Shown piece after piece: positions 1,501 through 10,428 of a stretch of DNA of 38,946 nucleotides. Under the pieces are notes generated by a model. It saw only the letters and a program-made list of their open reading frames with translations, had not been told where the DNA came from and did no database searches. The DNA is taken from positions 1 through 38,946 of the forward strand of contig JAQUFE010000018.1 of assembly GCA_028684815.1 (NCBI GenBank). The letters are read 5' to 3'. The stretch comes from Sulfurimonas sp. (GTDB taxonomy: Bacteria > Campylobacterota > Campylobacteria > Campylobacterales > Sulfurimonadaceae). Each line of letters starts with the position of its first letter. Within the stretch, counting starts at the first letter, position 1. A program made the translations under genes and the position numbers.

Positions 1501-1650
1501 ATAATTCCTTAATTTTATTTCATAAAATGAAGGAAACCTTGTCTATTTAAACGATATCGAAAATGTACCAACAAAGGTACAATATTTCCGACATCTGAGT
1601 TAATAGTTGGTTTCCCTTCAGCAGGAAGTTCGTCGCACTAATGCGACTGC
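1501..1650. repeat. Dispersed hairpin repeat family A, copy 1
   Basis: Fills the trmD-rplS gap. It shares with copies 2 (6700-6942) and 3 (10184-10428) the end box CCTTAATTTTATTTCATAAAATGAAGG, given here with the note that positions 1507-1533 hold it, and the block GGTTTCC..CAGGAAG near 1609-1628. A terminal 6-bp hairpin GTCGCA/TGCGAC (1632-1647) covers the last codons and stop of trmD. The central part (about 1552-1594) is a diverged imperfect hairpin around GTACC/GGTAC. No protein is encoded; the copies vary in the middle and are conserved at the gene-start end. Confidence 0.7.
1507..1533 (-). promoter_or_regulatory. Hairpin hiding the rplS Shine-Dalgarno
   Basis: In the leftward RNA, CCTT pairs with the AAGG of the ribosome site, followed by a C/T mismatch, a 7-bp helix ATTTTAT/ATAAAAT and a GAA loop. 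An upstream AAGG (at 1537-1540 on this strand, TTT spacer) could compete for the same CCTT. The start codon follows after about 7 nt. The structure recurs before two other genes. Regulation is inferred from structure only. Confidence 0.5.
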
Positions 1651-2333
1651 ATTCTATGCTTTAAAAGCTGCTCTGGCCTGAAGAATTTTGTCTTGCACTC
1701 AGACAGGGCTAATTTTAGTGAGCGAATTCTACTGTGATTTCCCTTTAAATATTCTGATGAGACAAAAAAACCTCTAAAGTTTTGTGGTTTAGAAAAAGAT
1801 GGCGCCTCTAATAAAGGAGTCTCAAAACTCTCAATATCCAAAGATTCACTATTACCGAGAACTCCATCAATATTTCTACTTATTGCATCACACATCACAA
1901 GAGATGCAAGCTCCCCGCCTGTTAAGATATAGTCTCCAATGGAGAAGACTTCATCTGCAAACTCTTCTATAACTCTCTCATCAATTCCCTCGTATCTTCC
2001 ACTCACAAAAGCTATATGGGATTTTTTGGAGAGCCTTTTTGCATCACTCTGCACAAAAGGTTTAGCCACAGGAGTTAAAAAAACTATATGAACTTCTTCA
2101 TCCTGTTTTTTTAAATCACTTAGTGCATCAAAAAGTGGTTGAGGGTTCATAACCATCCCAGCCCCACCGCCGACTGCACTGTCATCAACTTTGTTATGCT
2201 TGTTATCACTAAACTCTCTAGGGTCAAGAAAGTTTATGTGAATGATATCTTTTTCAATCGCTCTTCTTAGTATGGAGTCACTAAAGTAACCCTCTACTAT
2301 ATTTTTAAAAAGCGTTACAAAAGTAAAATTCAT
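1638..2333 (-). CDS. trmD: tRNA (guanine-37-N1)-methyltransferase
   Basis: Uses S-adenosylmethionine to methylate G37 next to the anticodon of certain tRNAs, preventing +1 frameshifting. At 231 residues it has the expected length. The knotted SPOUT core is evident: [11 protein letters not shown] near residue 110 and [17 protein letters not shown] about 131-147. Its start codon overlaps the rimM stop by one base, implying translational coupling. The last three codons and the stop lie inside the terminal hairpin of repeat family A copy 1, so the extreme C-terminus (QSH) is supplied by the repeat. Function is certain. Confidence 0.97.
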
Positions 2334-5013: not shown

Positions 5014-5970
5014 TTAATCTTTTGCTGCATAAGAAATTAGCTCTAACTTCTCACTTCTTTTTAGCTGTTTTATAGCGTATTCTCTTTGCATCGCGTGAAC
5101 TTTATCATCGCAATTCTCGAAATAAACAAGTTCAACTGGTCTCTTGGCTCTTGTAAATTTTGCACCTAAATTTGAACTATTATGCTCTTTTACTCTTCTT
5201 TTTATATCTGTCGTTACCCCTGTATAAAGGGTGTTGTCTGCACATTTTAGGACATATACCTTCCAAGGGCTTATTGGCGTCACAAAAATATCTTTTTCTT
5301 CATTTTTATAAAAGAGAGCATCTCCACTTTGACAATACTTCATAGTATATGCACAAGTGATGGCATCTAGCATATCCTCAAACTCTTTTAAAGCTTTGCC
5401 TTTTAAGAGTTTCGCATCTGTTTTTAATATTTTATGATTAGATATTACTTTTTGGAGATATTTTGTATAGATGCCAAGTTGTTCTCGTATAAACTCAACA
5501 CTTCTACCTTTCTTTCTTTTATATGGTAGGATTTTTTGAGCATTAAAAAGCATGGCTATTGTTGAATGCGGATAGACTTCAAAGATAACTTTTTCAGAGT
5601 TATAGTCTCTTTTAAAGCCACGACTTTTCAGTTTTTTATATAACTCTTCACTTCTAATGGTTGGACTGTACTTTGTAAGTAGCTTGCGGTTTACTGGGAG
5701 CATAGAGATTTTATACTTCGCAAAGTCTTTGTTAAAGCTCTTTTCGCACACTCTGTTTCCATCTTCATTAAAGATCTCAAGCGGAGCATCTACACCTACA
5801 AAGATTTTTTTGTCTTGATATTTGTCTATCTCTTGAACTATTTCATCTATACTCTTTAGAAGTTTGATATCTACTATCTTAAGAGAATTTTTTAAAGGCA
5901 CTAAAACACAAAAGCCTGAGAGATTTTTCTCTCCCCAAGCCAAATCAATGCCGATATAGATGCTATTCAA
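5014..5970 (-). CDS. DUF429 domain fused to a GIY-YIG nuclease domain
   Basis: A 318-residue protein with two parts. Residues 1 to about 230 resemble DUF429, a predicted RNase H-like nuclease fold, with Asp in GIDLAWG (D9) and GVDAPLE (D61). Residues 236-312 are a complete GIY-YIG domain of the small YhbQ/UPF0213 kind: VYVLKC, LYTGVTTDIKRRVKEHN, KFTRAKRPVELVY, and REYAIKQLKR with the expected Arg and Glu. Each part is usually a separate protein, so two metal-dependent nuclease-type folds are joined here. The start is TTG, overlapping the end of the rluA-like gene by 8 bp. DNA-structure or repair activity is plausible; substrate unknown. Confidence 0.8.
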   Translation of the reverse strand: MNSIYIGIDLAWGEKNLSGFCVLVPLKNSLKIVDIKLLKSIDEIVQEIDKYQDKKIFVGVDAPLEIFNEDGNRVCEKSFNKDFAKYKISMLPVNRKLLTKYSPTIRSEELYKKLKSRGFKRDYNSEKVIFEVYPHSTIAMLFNAQKILPYKRKKGRSVEFIREQLGIYTKYLQKVISNHKILKTDAKLLKGKALKEFEDMLDAITCAYTMKYCQSGDALFYKNEEKDIFVTPISPWKVYVLKCADNTLYTGVTTDIKRRVKEHNSSNLGAKFTRAKRPVELVYFENCDDKVHAMQREYAIKQLKRSEKLELISYAAKD

Positions 5971-6697
5971 AGTCTATAAAAACCTTAGGTTCAGGTGCAA
6001 TAAACTCCATCCCAAGAAGTCTGACTTTATAGGCGTGAAGCATCACTCTTTTTGCTCGTCTTCCGCCGTATTGCTCATCTCCGATGATTGAGTGGTCGAT
6101 GTAACGAAGATGTGTTCTTATCTGATGTGTTCTTCCATGATGGATAACGCAGTTTATCTTTGTCTTATTTGCACTCACTAAGTCTGGAGTTATCTCAGTT
6201 CTTGCAGGTTTTCCTTTGCCTGAGACATTTGAATAGGCTTTGTTATTTTTTTTCTGAGTCAAAATCGGTTTATCAACCTCTATCGGCTCACTAATAATAC
6301 CCTCAACCCATGCAATATACTCTTTATAAACATTGTCTTTTTTAAACTCAGTTATAGCTTTTTGTCTAAACTCTTCATTTTTTACAAGCATCAAAACACC
6401 GCTTGTCTCGCGGTCAAGTCTGTGAAGTAAAACCGCTGGTTTAAGCTGTCTCTCTATCTCATCTGAGTTTACAAATGCAGGTTTATCCACTACTATAATA
6501 TCATCATTCTCAAAGATTGGCTTAATTTTCTCAACCTTTTGAACTTTAAAAACTGTCTTTGCATCTAGCTCTCCACGAGCTATTACAACCTTGCTATTTC
6601 CTACATAAACCAATCCACGATCAATCATAGATTTAGCTTGAGAGTTTGAAATACCCTCTTGTAGAGATAATATTTTATACGCTTTTTCTTTAGCCAT
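5963..6697 (-). CDS. RluA-family pseudouridine synthase
   Basis: Converts specific uridines of rRNA or tRNA to pseudouridine. An S4-like RNA-binding segment occupies residues 1-60 (QEGISNSQAKSMIDRGLVYV), and the catalytic domain follows with the motif HRLDRETSGVLML, whose Asp is the nucleophile, then HHGRTHQIRTHLRY and GDEQYGG. At 244 residues it is slightly short for RluA/RluD but intact. The target uridine cannot be named. It sits between waaA and the DUF429 fusion, as I recall for Campylobacter. The ribosome site AAGGAA is provided by repeat family A copy 2 and can be masked by a hairpin (6707-6731). Confidence 0.92.
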   Translation of the reverse strand: MAKEKAYKILSLQEGISNSQAKSMIDRGLVYVGNSKVVIARGELDAKTVFKVQKVEKIKPIFENDDIIVVDKPAFVNSDEIERQLKPAVLLHRLDRETSGVLMLVKNEEFRQKAITEFKKDNVYKEYIAWVEGIISEPIEVDKPILTQKKNNKAYSNVSGKGKPARTEITPDLVSANKTKINCVIHHGRTHQIRTHLRYIDHSIIGDEQYGGRRAKRVMLHAYKVRLLGMEFIAPEPKVFIDFE

Positions 6698-6699
6698 AA

Positions 6700-6942
6700 C
6701 TCTGTTCCTTAATTTATTTTATAAATGAAGGGGGTCCTTCATCTATTTTGTCACAGTATCGGAAGTAATTCCGATACCTACGCTAATACCCCAAGGGTAC
6801 TTCTTTCAGGGCGCGCTGGGTTTCCTTCGGCAGGAAGCTCTTGGCGCTTGTGCCTCTTAGACTACCTTTTCAAGCTTTTGGGAACCGCGAATTTGTTTGG
6901 AAGTGTGGCATTTAAGCTCAAACTCCGAACAAGTTTGTGGTT
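6700..6942. repeat. Dispersed hairpin repeat family A, copy 2
   Basis: Fills the gap between waaA and the rluA-like gene. From the gene-start end: the Shine-Dalgarno hairpin box (6707-6731), a perfect 9-bp hairpin GTATCGGAA/TTCCGATAC with GTAA loop (6756-6777), TACCC/GGGTA, the GGTTTCCTTCGGCAGGAAGC block, GGCGCTTGTGCC, and a 19-bp helix between 6883-6901 and 6924-6942 that keeps every pair if four G-U pairs are allowed. Modules are shared with copy 3 but in a different combination. An 85-residue open frame on the + strand is only translated repeat. Confidence 0.75.
6707..6731 (-). promoter_or_regulatory. Hairpin hiding the rluA-like gene's Shine-Dalgarno
   Basis: Same layout as at 1507-1533: CCTT/AAGG, a C/T mismatch, then ATTTAT/ATAAAT (one pair shorter on both sides than in copies 1 and 3, a compensatory change) and an AAA loop. 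Competing fold: ATGAAGG/CCTTCAT with ACCC loop, a 7-bp perfect stem using the same CCTT. Two exclusive structures, one exposing and one hiding the ribosome site. Confidence 0.55.
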
Positions 6943-9578: not shown

Positions 9579-10181
9579 CTAAAGTTTCTCCAATTCCTCT
9601 CTAGCTTCTGTAAAGTCCGCATCAAGTTCTAATGCTTTTTTATACATCTCTTTTGCTTCATCAATATGTTTCATATCTACTAAAAGATTTCCAAAGTTAT
9701 AGTAAGTTATAGGATTATTTGCATCTATGTCTAAAGAAGCTTCAAGCTGAAGTTTAGCAGAGGCAAACTCACCCCTTTTTCTATATATAGAAGCCATAGA
9801 GTTGTGAATATATTCATTGTTTTTATCTACTTCAAGAGCTTCTTTGTAGTAGTTTAACGCCTCATCATTATCATCGATTTGTTGAAAAATATACCCTATT
9901 TTAAAGAGTGTATCTGGGTTGTTTGACTCTTTTGCATTAGCTTCTATAAGTAACGCCAACGCTTTTTGATAATCTTTTTGCTCATAAGCCTCATCTGCCT
10001 TTGCTATCAAAGCTTCTGGGTCAAATGGAGAGAATGTTTTAGCAGTTTTTTGCTCACTTTGATTTGTACGGTTTGTGTTGTCATTTTTTTCTTCTGGGTC
10101 TTGAAGTGTTTGAACATGTTGAAAGATTCTATATGCAAAAAAACCTGAAGCTATTAGCATTAGAAGTTGTAGTGTTGTCAT
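9579..10181 (-). CDS. Membrane-anchored TPR protein
   Basis: A 200-residue protein with one N-terminal membrane segment (LQLLMLIASGFFAYRIF, about 4-20), a polar linker rich in Asn and Gln (31-48), and about four tetratricopeptide repeats from 60 to the end (for example ALALLIEANAKESNNPDTLFK, split at ANA, and EALNYYKEALEVDKNNEYIH). TPR units mediate protein-protein contacts; the partner is unknown. It ends one base before the Nif3 gene. Its Shine-Dalgarno is the tip of repeat family A copy 3 and can be sequestered (10192-10218). Confidence 0.85.
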   Translation of the reverse strand: MTTLQLLMLIASGFFAYRIFQHVQTLQDPEEKNDNTNRTNQSEQKTAKTFSPFDPEALIAKADEAYEQKDYQKALALLIEANAKESNNPDTLFKIGYIFQQIDDNDEALNYYKEALEVDKNNEYIHNSMASIYRKRGEFASAKLQLEASLDIDANNPITYYNFGNLLVDMKHIDEAKEMYKKALELDADFTEAREELEKL

Positions 10182-10183
10182 AT

Positions 10184-10428
10184 CTGTAATTCCTTAATTT
10201 TATTTCATAAAATGAAGGAGCCCTTCATTTGATTTTGTCACGGTATCGGAAGTAATTCCGATACCTACGCTAACGCTTGGTTTCCTTCGGCAGGAAGCCC
10301 TCGGCACTTGTGCCTCTTACTGTTTTGTTACAGTATCGGAAGTAATTCCGATACCTACGCTAATACCCCAAGGGTACTTCCTTCGGGGCGCGCTGGGTTT
10401 TGCTTAGCTCAAAGCACTAGTGCTTTAT
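10184..10428. repeat. Dispersed hairpin repeat family A, copy 3 (double unit)
   Basis: Fills the gap between the M23 peptidase gene and the TPR gene. It carries the Shine-Dalgarno hairpin box (10192-10218), then two units each starting with the perfect hairpin GTATCGGAA/TTCCGATAC (10243-10264 and 10333-10354, 90 bp apart). Unit one continues with GGTTTCCTTCGGCAGGAAGCC and GGCAC/GTGCC, unit two with TACCC/GGGTA and GGGGCGCGCTGGG, ending in the 16-bp perfect palindrome AAAGCACTAGTGCTTT (10411-10426). Copy 2 looks like a recombinant of these two units. Confidence 0.75.
10192..10218 (-). promoter_or_regulatory. Hairpin hiding the TPR gene's Shine-Dalgarno
   Basis: CCTT/AAGG plus a 7-bp helix ATTTTAT/ATAAAAT with a GAA loop covers the ribosome site of the TPR gene. 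The same CCTT can instead join the upstream hairpin ATGAAGG-GCT-CCTTCAT (7 perfect pairs), freeing the ribosome site. It is the third occurrence of the same arrangement. Confidence 0.55.

Follow-up and report, generated by a model that had tools for sequence, protein, structure and literature searches.

A modular Sulfurimonas repeat family that ends at Shine-Dalgarno sequences and can form two competing hairpins

Overview

The leaders of three genes in the window, i.e., the 38,946 nucleotides of contig JAQUFE010000018.1 from a Sulfurimonas sp. genome (GCA_028684815.1), belong, judging by their sequences, to a modular repeat family restricted to the genus Sulfurimonas. For the terminal module of this repeat, termed D, two hairpins are possible that exclude each other: P2, which closes the Shine-Dalgarno (SD) sequence of the gene that follows, and P1, which frees it. 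As a structure, the portable, bistable leader is well supported by comparison of the copies, and from it we infer an effect of the element on translation. On balance we lean towards the reading that the repeat, ending directly 5' of the SD, sets, and may switch, initiation of the gene behind it.

The three leaders of the window

Pfam matches identify the three genes as those of ribosomal protein L19 (rplS), a pseudouridine synthase (RluA-like) and a TPR protein. Their leaders contain the following features:

10179-10181, minus strand: ATG of the TPR gene (ORF 9579-10181)
10192-10195, minus strand: SD sequence AAGG of the TPR gene, the 3' strand of P2
10192-10218, minus strand: P2 of the TPR leader (SD closed); CCUU/AAGG, one-by-one C.U mismatch, 7-bp A-U helix, GAA loop
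10210-10230, minus strand: P1 of the TPR leader (SD open); AAAUGAAGG / CCUUCAUUU, GCU loop, CCUU common to P2
10242-10265, minus strand: module C of the TPR leader, GTAG-tagged palindrome GTATCGGAATTACTTCCGATAC
10272-10320, minus strand: module A of the TPR leader, GGCACAAGTGCC hairpin and TTCC/GGAA hairpin (assigned partly by inspection)
10323-10400, minus strand: upstream part of the TPR array, second module C (10323-10363) and module B (GCGCGCCCCGAAGGAAGTACCCTTGGGG)
6707-6731, minus strand: P2 of the RluA-like gene leader, 6-bp A-U helix; SD AAGG at 6707-6710, ORF 5963-6697
6725-6742, minus strand: P1 of the RluA-like gene leader, AUGAAGG/CCUUCAU and one more pair outside
6756-6778, minus strand: module C of the RluA-like gene leader; modules B and A run on to about 6862
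1507-1533, minus strand: P2 of the rplS leader; SD AAGG at 1507-1510, ORF 1138-1497
1537-1540, minus strand: degenerate P1 arm of the rplS leader, AAGG only; P2 is the predicted ground state
1545-1656, minus strand: degenerate C and A modules between trmD and rplS
1638-2333, minus strand: trmD ORF, its stop codon inside module A

As the first-pass annotation had claimed, all three leaders read AAGG - CCTT - helix - AAGG(SD) - ATG on the minus strand, with P2 at the positions listed and the AAGG about 9-10 nt from the ATG. The seven pairs of ATGAAGG/CCTTCAT that it described in two copies extend to nine perfect pairs in the TPR leader (10210-10218 with 10222-10230) and eight in the RluA-like leader (GAUGAAGG/CCUUCAUU); the rplS leader has AAGG/CCTT only. 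In the leftward RNA the TPR leader is AAAUGAAGG GCU CCUUCAUUUUAUGAAAUAAAAUUAAGG, with the AUG 10 nt on. Folded alone, the TPR and RluA-like modules are predicted to prefer the upstream P1 (-7.9 and -8.7 kcal/mol, respectively), leaving AAGG free, and the rplS module, with most of P1 lost, the SD-closing P2 (-4.8 kcal/mol). When longer flanks are included, at 20 C, the two states of the TPR copy are predicted to be nearly balanced (open, -13.9 kcal/mol; closed, -15.4 kcal/mol).

Modular architecture of the repeat

The family is composed of hairpin modules A, B and C, followed by the terminal D, and its head-to-tail modules fill intergenic gaps of about 80-690 nt. Module A consists of GGCAC..GTGCC, then TTCC..GGAA; module B is GCGCGCCCCGAAGGAAGTACCCTTGGGG; module C comprises CGTAG, a variable palindrome and CGTGACAAAAT; and module D terminates at AAGG. 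The CGTAG and palindrome are present in most copies. We rejected an integron attC site as a candidate, since GTTAGCG presumably does not fit the R' box. Copies of A-C without D, at luxS, rplK, glyA and clpX, also end at the SD and ATG, so D is optional; guide-type targeting through the CCTT of the element is weakened by these same copies. A leader peptide in D (ATGAAGG...) was rejected, its frame differing from copy to copy.

Several further arrangements were observed. A small hairpin, GGTACCCCTTGAGGGTAT, occurs within the loops of other array hairpins, both in module C (loci L007 and L035) and in module D (L054 and L297), and looks like a nested hairpin insertion. The nifU-like (L203) and luxS (L124) leaders of genome G000 have lost the D hairpin and kept ATAAAATTAAGG, as if the hairpin had been deleted between two ATAAAAT repeats. 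Another hairpin repeat (AGTTCCAACGCTCCGCGTTGGAACT ... CCCACGCAGAGCGTGGGAG) shares intergenic gaps with the family at L012 and L020. Finally, a 23S rRNA gene contains an A-C module (L310, about 601-655; G012 contig 1, 465619-465673), with the Rfam LSU match running across the stretch; the module resembles a 23S intervening sequence made of this repeat family.

Range and placement of the copies

Copies were gathered by BLAST, pattern and profile searches. The genome of the window has 50 BLAST matches to the repeat and 64 hits with a sequence-only profile; most other Sulfurimonas genomes tested have 1-17 hits. BLAST found no match in 16 genomes from other families of the order, and a profile recheck of three other-family genomes gave a marginal hit in one (E 7e-4). 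The exact P2 pattern occurs only in contigs labelled Sulfurimonas or wider groups, besides three contigs of one genome titled "bacterium".

The first-pass annotation had named proximity to start codons as a point on which its proposal would stand or fall. Among 112 D copies, which were collected without the P2 hairpin pattern and parsed with A[AG]GG as anchor, 107 stop 3-17 nt 5' of an ORF start codon, an arrangement that we estimate at roughly 1% by chance (about 2,300 genes in 2.27 Mb, same strand). The other five comprise three internal tandem copies and two that precede short-gene starts (rpmF and a gene beginning MSKEEI). Copies at the SD have one orientation only, and apparent copies away from starts proved to be antisense matches of the near-palindrome. 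The genes behind D span many families, including rplS, rplL, rpmA, ilvC, dnaK and hypA.

Upstream of most copies in this genome lies a gene on the same strand, e.g., trmD before rplS; rplJ before rplL and rplU before rpmA are further pairs, which we take from recognisable sequence to be so named. This arrangement is consistent with a role in mRNA processing or stability, wherein A-C and P1 would be cut or would protect the 5' end and so provide a separate, stabler mRNA for downstream operon genes (rplL, rpmA, rplS and dnaK), the pairing with the SD being secondary. The targets include proteins probably needed in excess over the product of the upstream gene (e.g., rplL after rplJ), near its 5' side D contains a strong hairpin, P1, and RNases target the ERIC and Correia repeats (as cited in passages of PMC3049150). 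Nevertheless, the better conserved helix is P2 rather than P1, and P2 is locked to the SD; we thus regard this explanation as improbable.

The helix predicted to close the SD sequence

P2 consists of 4 bp of CCUU with the AAGG of the SD, a one-by-one mismatch and an A-U-rich helix of 6-8 bp, usually with a 3-nt loop. Its covariation was assessed in the commonest geometry, represented by 48 distinct sequences, in which 97.5% of the P2 cells are paired and 36 are doubly changed, as compared to 8.7 in shuffles. The covariation score is 0.238 versus 0.090 in shuffled sets (0/500), slid controls reaching at most 0.053; relatedness among the copies is only partly removed in these tests and in the P1 tests below. 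Covariation across many copies, on which the first-pass annotation had also made its proposal depend, is therefore present in P2, and in P1 for the main class only. Between the window copies, the change that it had called compensatory (ATTTAT/ATAAAT versus ATTTTAT/ATAAAAT) amounts to a helix shorter by one base pair, each arm having lost one nucleotide, rather than to a substitution; true compensatory substitutions occur in other copies. Across rpmA orthologs, for example, both sides of P2 changed at two positions (AAATTTGG/CCAAATTT, AAAATTGG/CCAATTTT and AAATTTAG/CTAAATTT).

The mismatch is mostly retained, as C.U, A.A, G.A or U.C, and is paired in some copies. G.U pairs outnumber A.C in P2 (25 versus 6), as expected for sense-strand RNA; the excess is seen in both helices, the P2 figure being the safer since the P1 register was optimised with G.U allowed. 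CCTT:AAGG itself hardly varies, and the case for pairing of the SD strand thus rests mainly on the geometry, on the helix that adjoins it above and on G.U substitutions.

Four rpmA leaders (L126, L270, L283 and L259) have an unusually stable SD-closing hairpin, fully paired in the first three, with a GGGAACC or AGGAACT tip and no clear P1. They are a candidate for separate control of L27.

The helix predicted to free the SD sequence

P1 is formed by the upstream (A)AUGAAGG and CCUUCAU(U), and so takes up the CCUU strand of P2. Since the MAFFT columns put P1 out of register, it was examined by swapping arms between copies. In class 1, the main class (77 copies), the own arm gives -8.80 kcal/mol, as compared to -7.85 kcal/mol with the arms of other genomes (0/2000); in the 33 copies of class 2 no P1 covariation was detected (374/2000 in the arm swap). 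Among hypA orthologs, a U-A pair of P1 becomes C-G while an A-U pair of P2 becomes G.U. Some copies, such as rplS in the window and rpmA, have a weak P1 or none, so that not every copy is two-state. The two-state pairing proposed by the first-pass annotation therefore holds in part: P2 and the competing P1 both covary, the latter in the main class only.

Energy balance and temperature

For 107 leaders at 20 C, the SD-open and P2-closed states are close in predicted energy: their best structures have mean values of -19.06 and -19.82 kcal/mol, respectively, and the open one is better in 49. When the P1 arm is cut off, the predicted probability that the SD is unpaired falls from 0.35 to 0.10 (0.47 in ordinary AAGG genes), which indicates a tendency of the element to close the SD, counteracted by P1.

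The A-U-rich SD hairpin with its conserved mismatch might suggest an RNA thermometer or ion sensor, and indeed predicted opening of the SD rises with temperature, from 0.29 to 0.59 between 5 and 55 C. This rise is about as steep as in ordinary Sulfurimonas genes (0.44 to 0.67), and the leaders are thus predicted to be no more responsive than these, contrary to the special temperature sensing that had been envisaged. Rfam gave no match to the repeat above the gathering threshold, and none to a thermometer family. We consider such a sensor very improbable.

Origin and spread

The trmD and rplS genes overlap in eight relatives (AAGCATAGAACAAGGAAATCTTATG type), whereas in G000, G007, G014, G011, G020 and L092 the element or a remnant lies directly before AAGGA. 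The trmD frame of G000 now stops within the element, and the rplS spacer is 2-3 nt longer when occupied. In the case of ilvC, the promoter GTATAATGCGACAAATTTTT is conserved and the element lies between promoter and SD; its left end could not be placed, as the leaders have diverged. The spacer AAGGAAATGAA-ATG is identical in G014 (occupied) and in G007 and G023 (empty). The SD and spacer, common to occupied and empty relatives, therefore look resident, and the element appears to contribute the scaffold and the anti-SD arm, not a whole ribosome site. The earlier idea of a mobile repeat that brings a ready-made switch is correspondingly narrowed: the dispersed repeat and its P2 and P1 hairpins stand, the SD and spacer of ilvC apparently being resident.

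For 29 of 37 G000 copies the nearest neighbour is in the same genome (12.2 expected), and for 29 of 73 copies elsewhere it is the same gene in another genome (1.2 expected). On this sequence comparison, copies have been amplified in this genome, and elsewhere many have been inherited with their gene. The nifU-like gene, dnaK, fabG and rplI differ between species in the class of their copy, 1 or 2, suggesting that these sites were occupied more than once or that copies were replaced.

These patterns could also reflect a selfish, SD-directed element that inserts, or formerly inserted, next to AAGGA, its hairpins serving as DNA ends for transposition; effects on translation would be incidental, and copies would survive at SDs since other sites are harmful. 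Such an origin would account for the element standing exactly at the SD of rplS, with no visible target duplication, where the empty genes overlap, and for the equal ilvC spacers, the species-specific amplification, the GTAG-tagged palindrome also known from RAYT-borne REPs and the D-less A-C copies at SDs. Against it, hairpin compensation among orthologs long after insertion, together with the excess of G.U over A.C, suggests selection on the RNA in place. No element was present in the flanks of 15 Y1_Tnp loci from 25 genomes, several element-bearing genomes lack any Y1 hit, and no autonomous partner was found; mobilisation by IS200/RAYT was rejected, the Y1 genes being unlinked to the element. 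We consider the selfish explanation possible but rather doubtful.

Comparison with known repeats and leaders

Like the GTAG-tagged, RAYT-associated REP palindromes (PMC3733652), module C has a palindrome after GTAG and many clustered extragenic copies. The Sulfurimonas units differ in being head-to-tail, with extra modules, in one orientation and located upstream of genes and at their start codons, in contrast to the mainly downstream location of REPs; although both the GTAG tag and the palindrome are present, no RAYT linkage was seen. The BOX elements of Streptococcus pneumoniae are likewise modular (boxA-boxB-boxC), with repeatable modules and a folded RNA that can affect the downstream gene, but the passages of PMC3049150 that describe them do not present them as SD-anchored or as having an SD/anti-SD helix pair. 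With bacterial MITEs (reviewed in PMC10969869) the element shares short, non-coding, intergenic, dispersed and non-autonomous copies and species-level amplification (29/37), yet no terminal inverted repeats or target duplication were recognised in the occupied/empty comparisons of trmD-rplS and ilvC, and its insertion point is fixed at the SD. SD-sequestering riboswitch and thermometer leaders also have mutually exclusive helices by which the SD is hidden or exposed; in the element such helices are conserved, that of P1 in the main class only, and one of them contains the SD. Unlike those leaders, the element is dispersed over dozens of unrelated genes and matches no Rfam family. Our literature search, which had most subscription papers outside its reach, found no description of the Sulfurimonas repeat family; in the part of RepRanger available, REPs are counted in S. 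gotlandica without being described.

Proposed role and implications

In the leader reading that we favour, the element would be transcribed as a 5' leader or intercistronic RNA. P1, made first, would leave the SD open; where P1 is missing, melted or out-competed, P2 would close it, and the element would set, possibly switch, translation initiation of whichever gene follows. The housekeeping targets, without an obvious common signal, count against a leader switch, as do the dispensability of module D, the absence of P1 covariation in class 2 and the loss of P1 from some conserved copies (rpmA, and rplS in the window). Our guess is that most copies tune initiation or stability constitutively and that regulated switching is possible in some. 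A genus-wide mobile, SD-directed RNA leader that places dozens of unrelated core genes under the same bistable switch, rewiring their translation initiation as one regulon with a common signal, seems unlikely to us.

The usual view of palindromic repeats is that of 3' or neutral debris. The present family, by contrast, is located exactly at the ribosome sites of core genes throughout the genus, among them genes for ribosomal proteins, chaperones and biosynthesis, and compensatory changes keep restoring its RNA structure. Such a family would provide a clear example, in nature, of translational control built from a dispersed repeat, and its more than one hundred existing variants of a single bistable leader can be used to test the effects of SD hairpins on expression.
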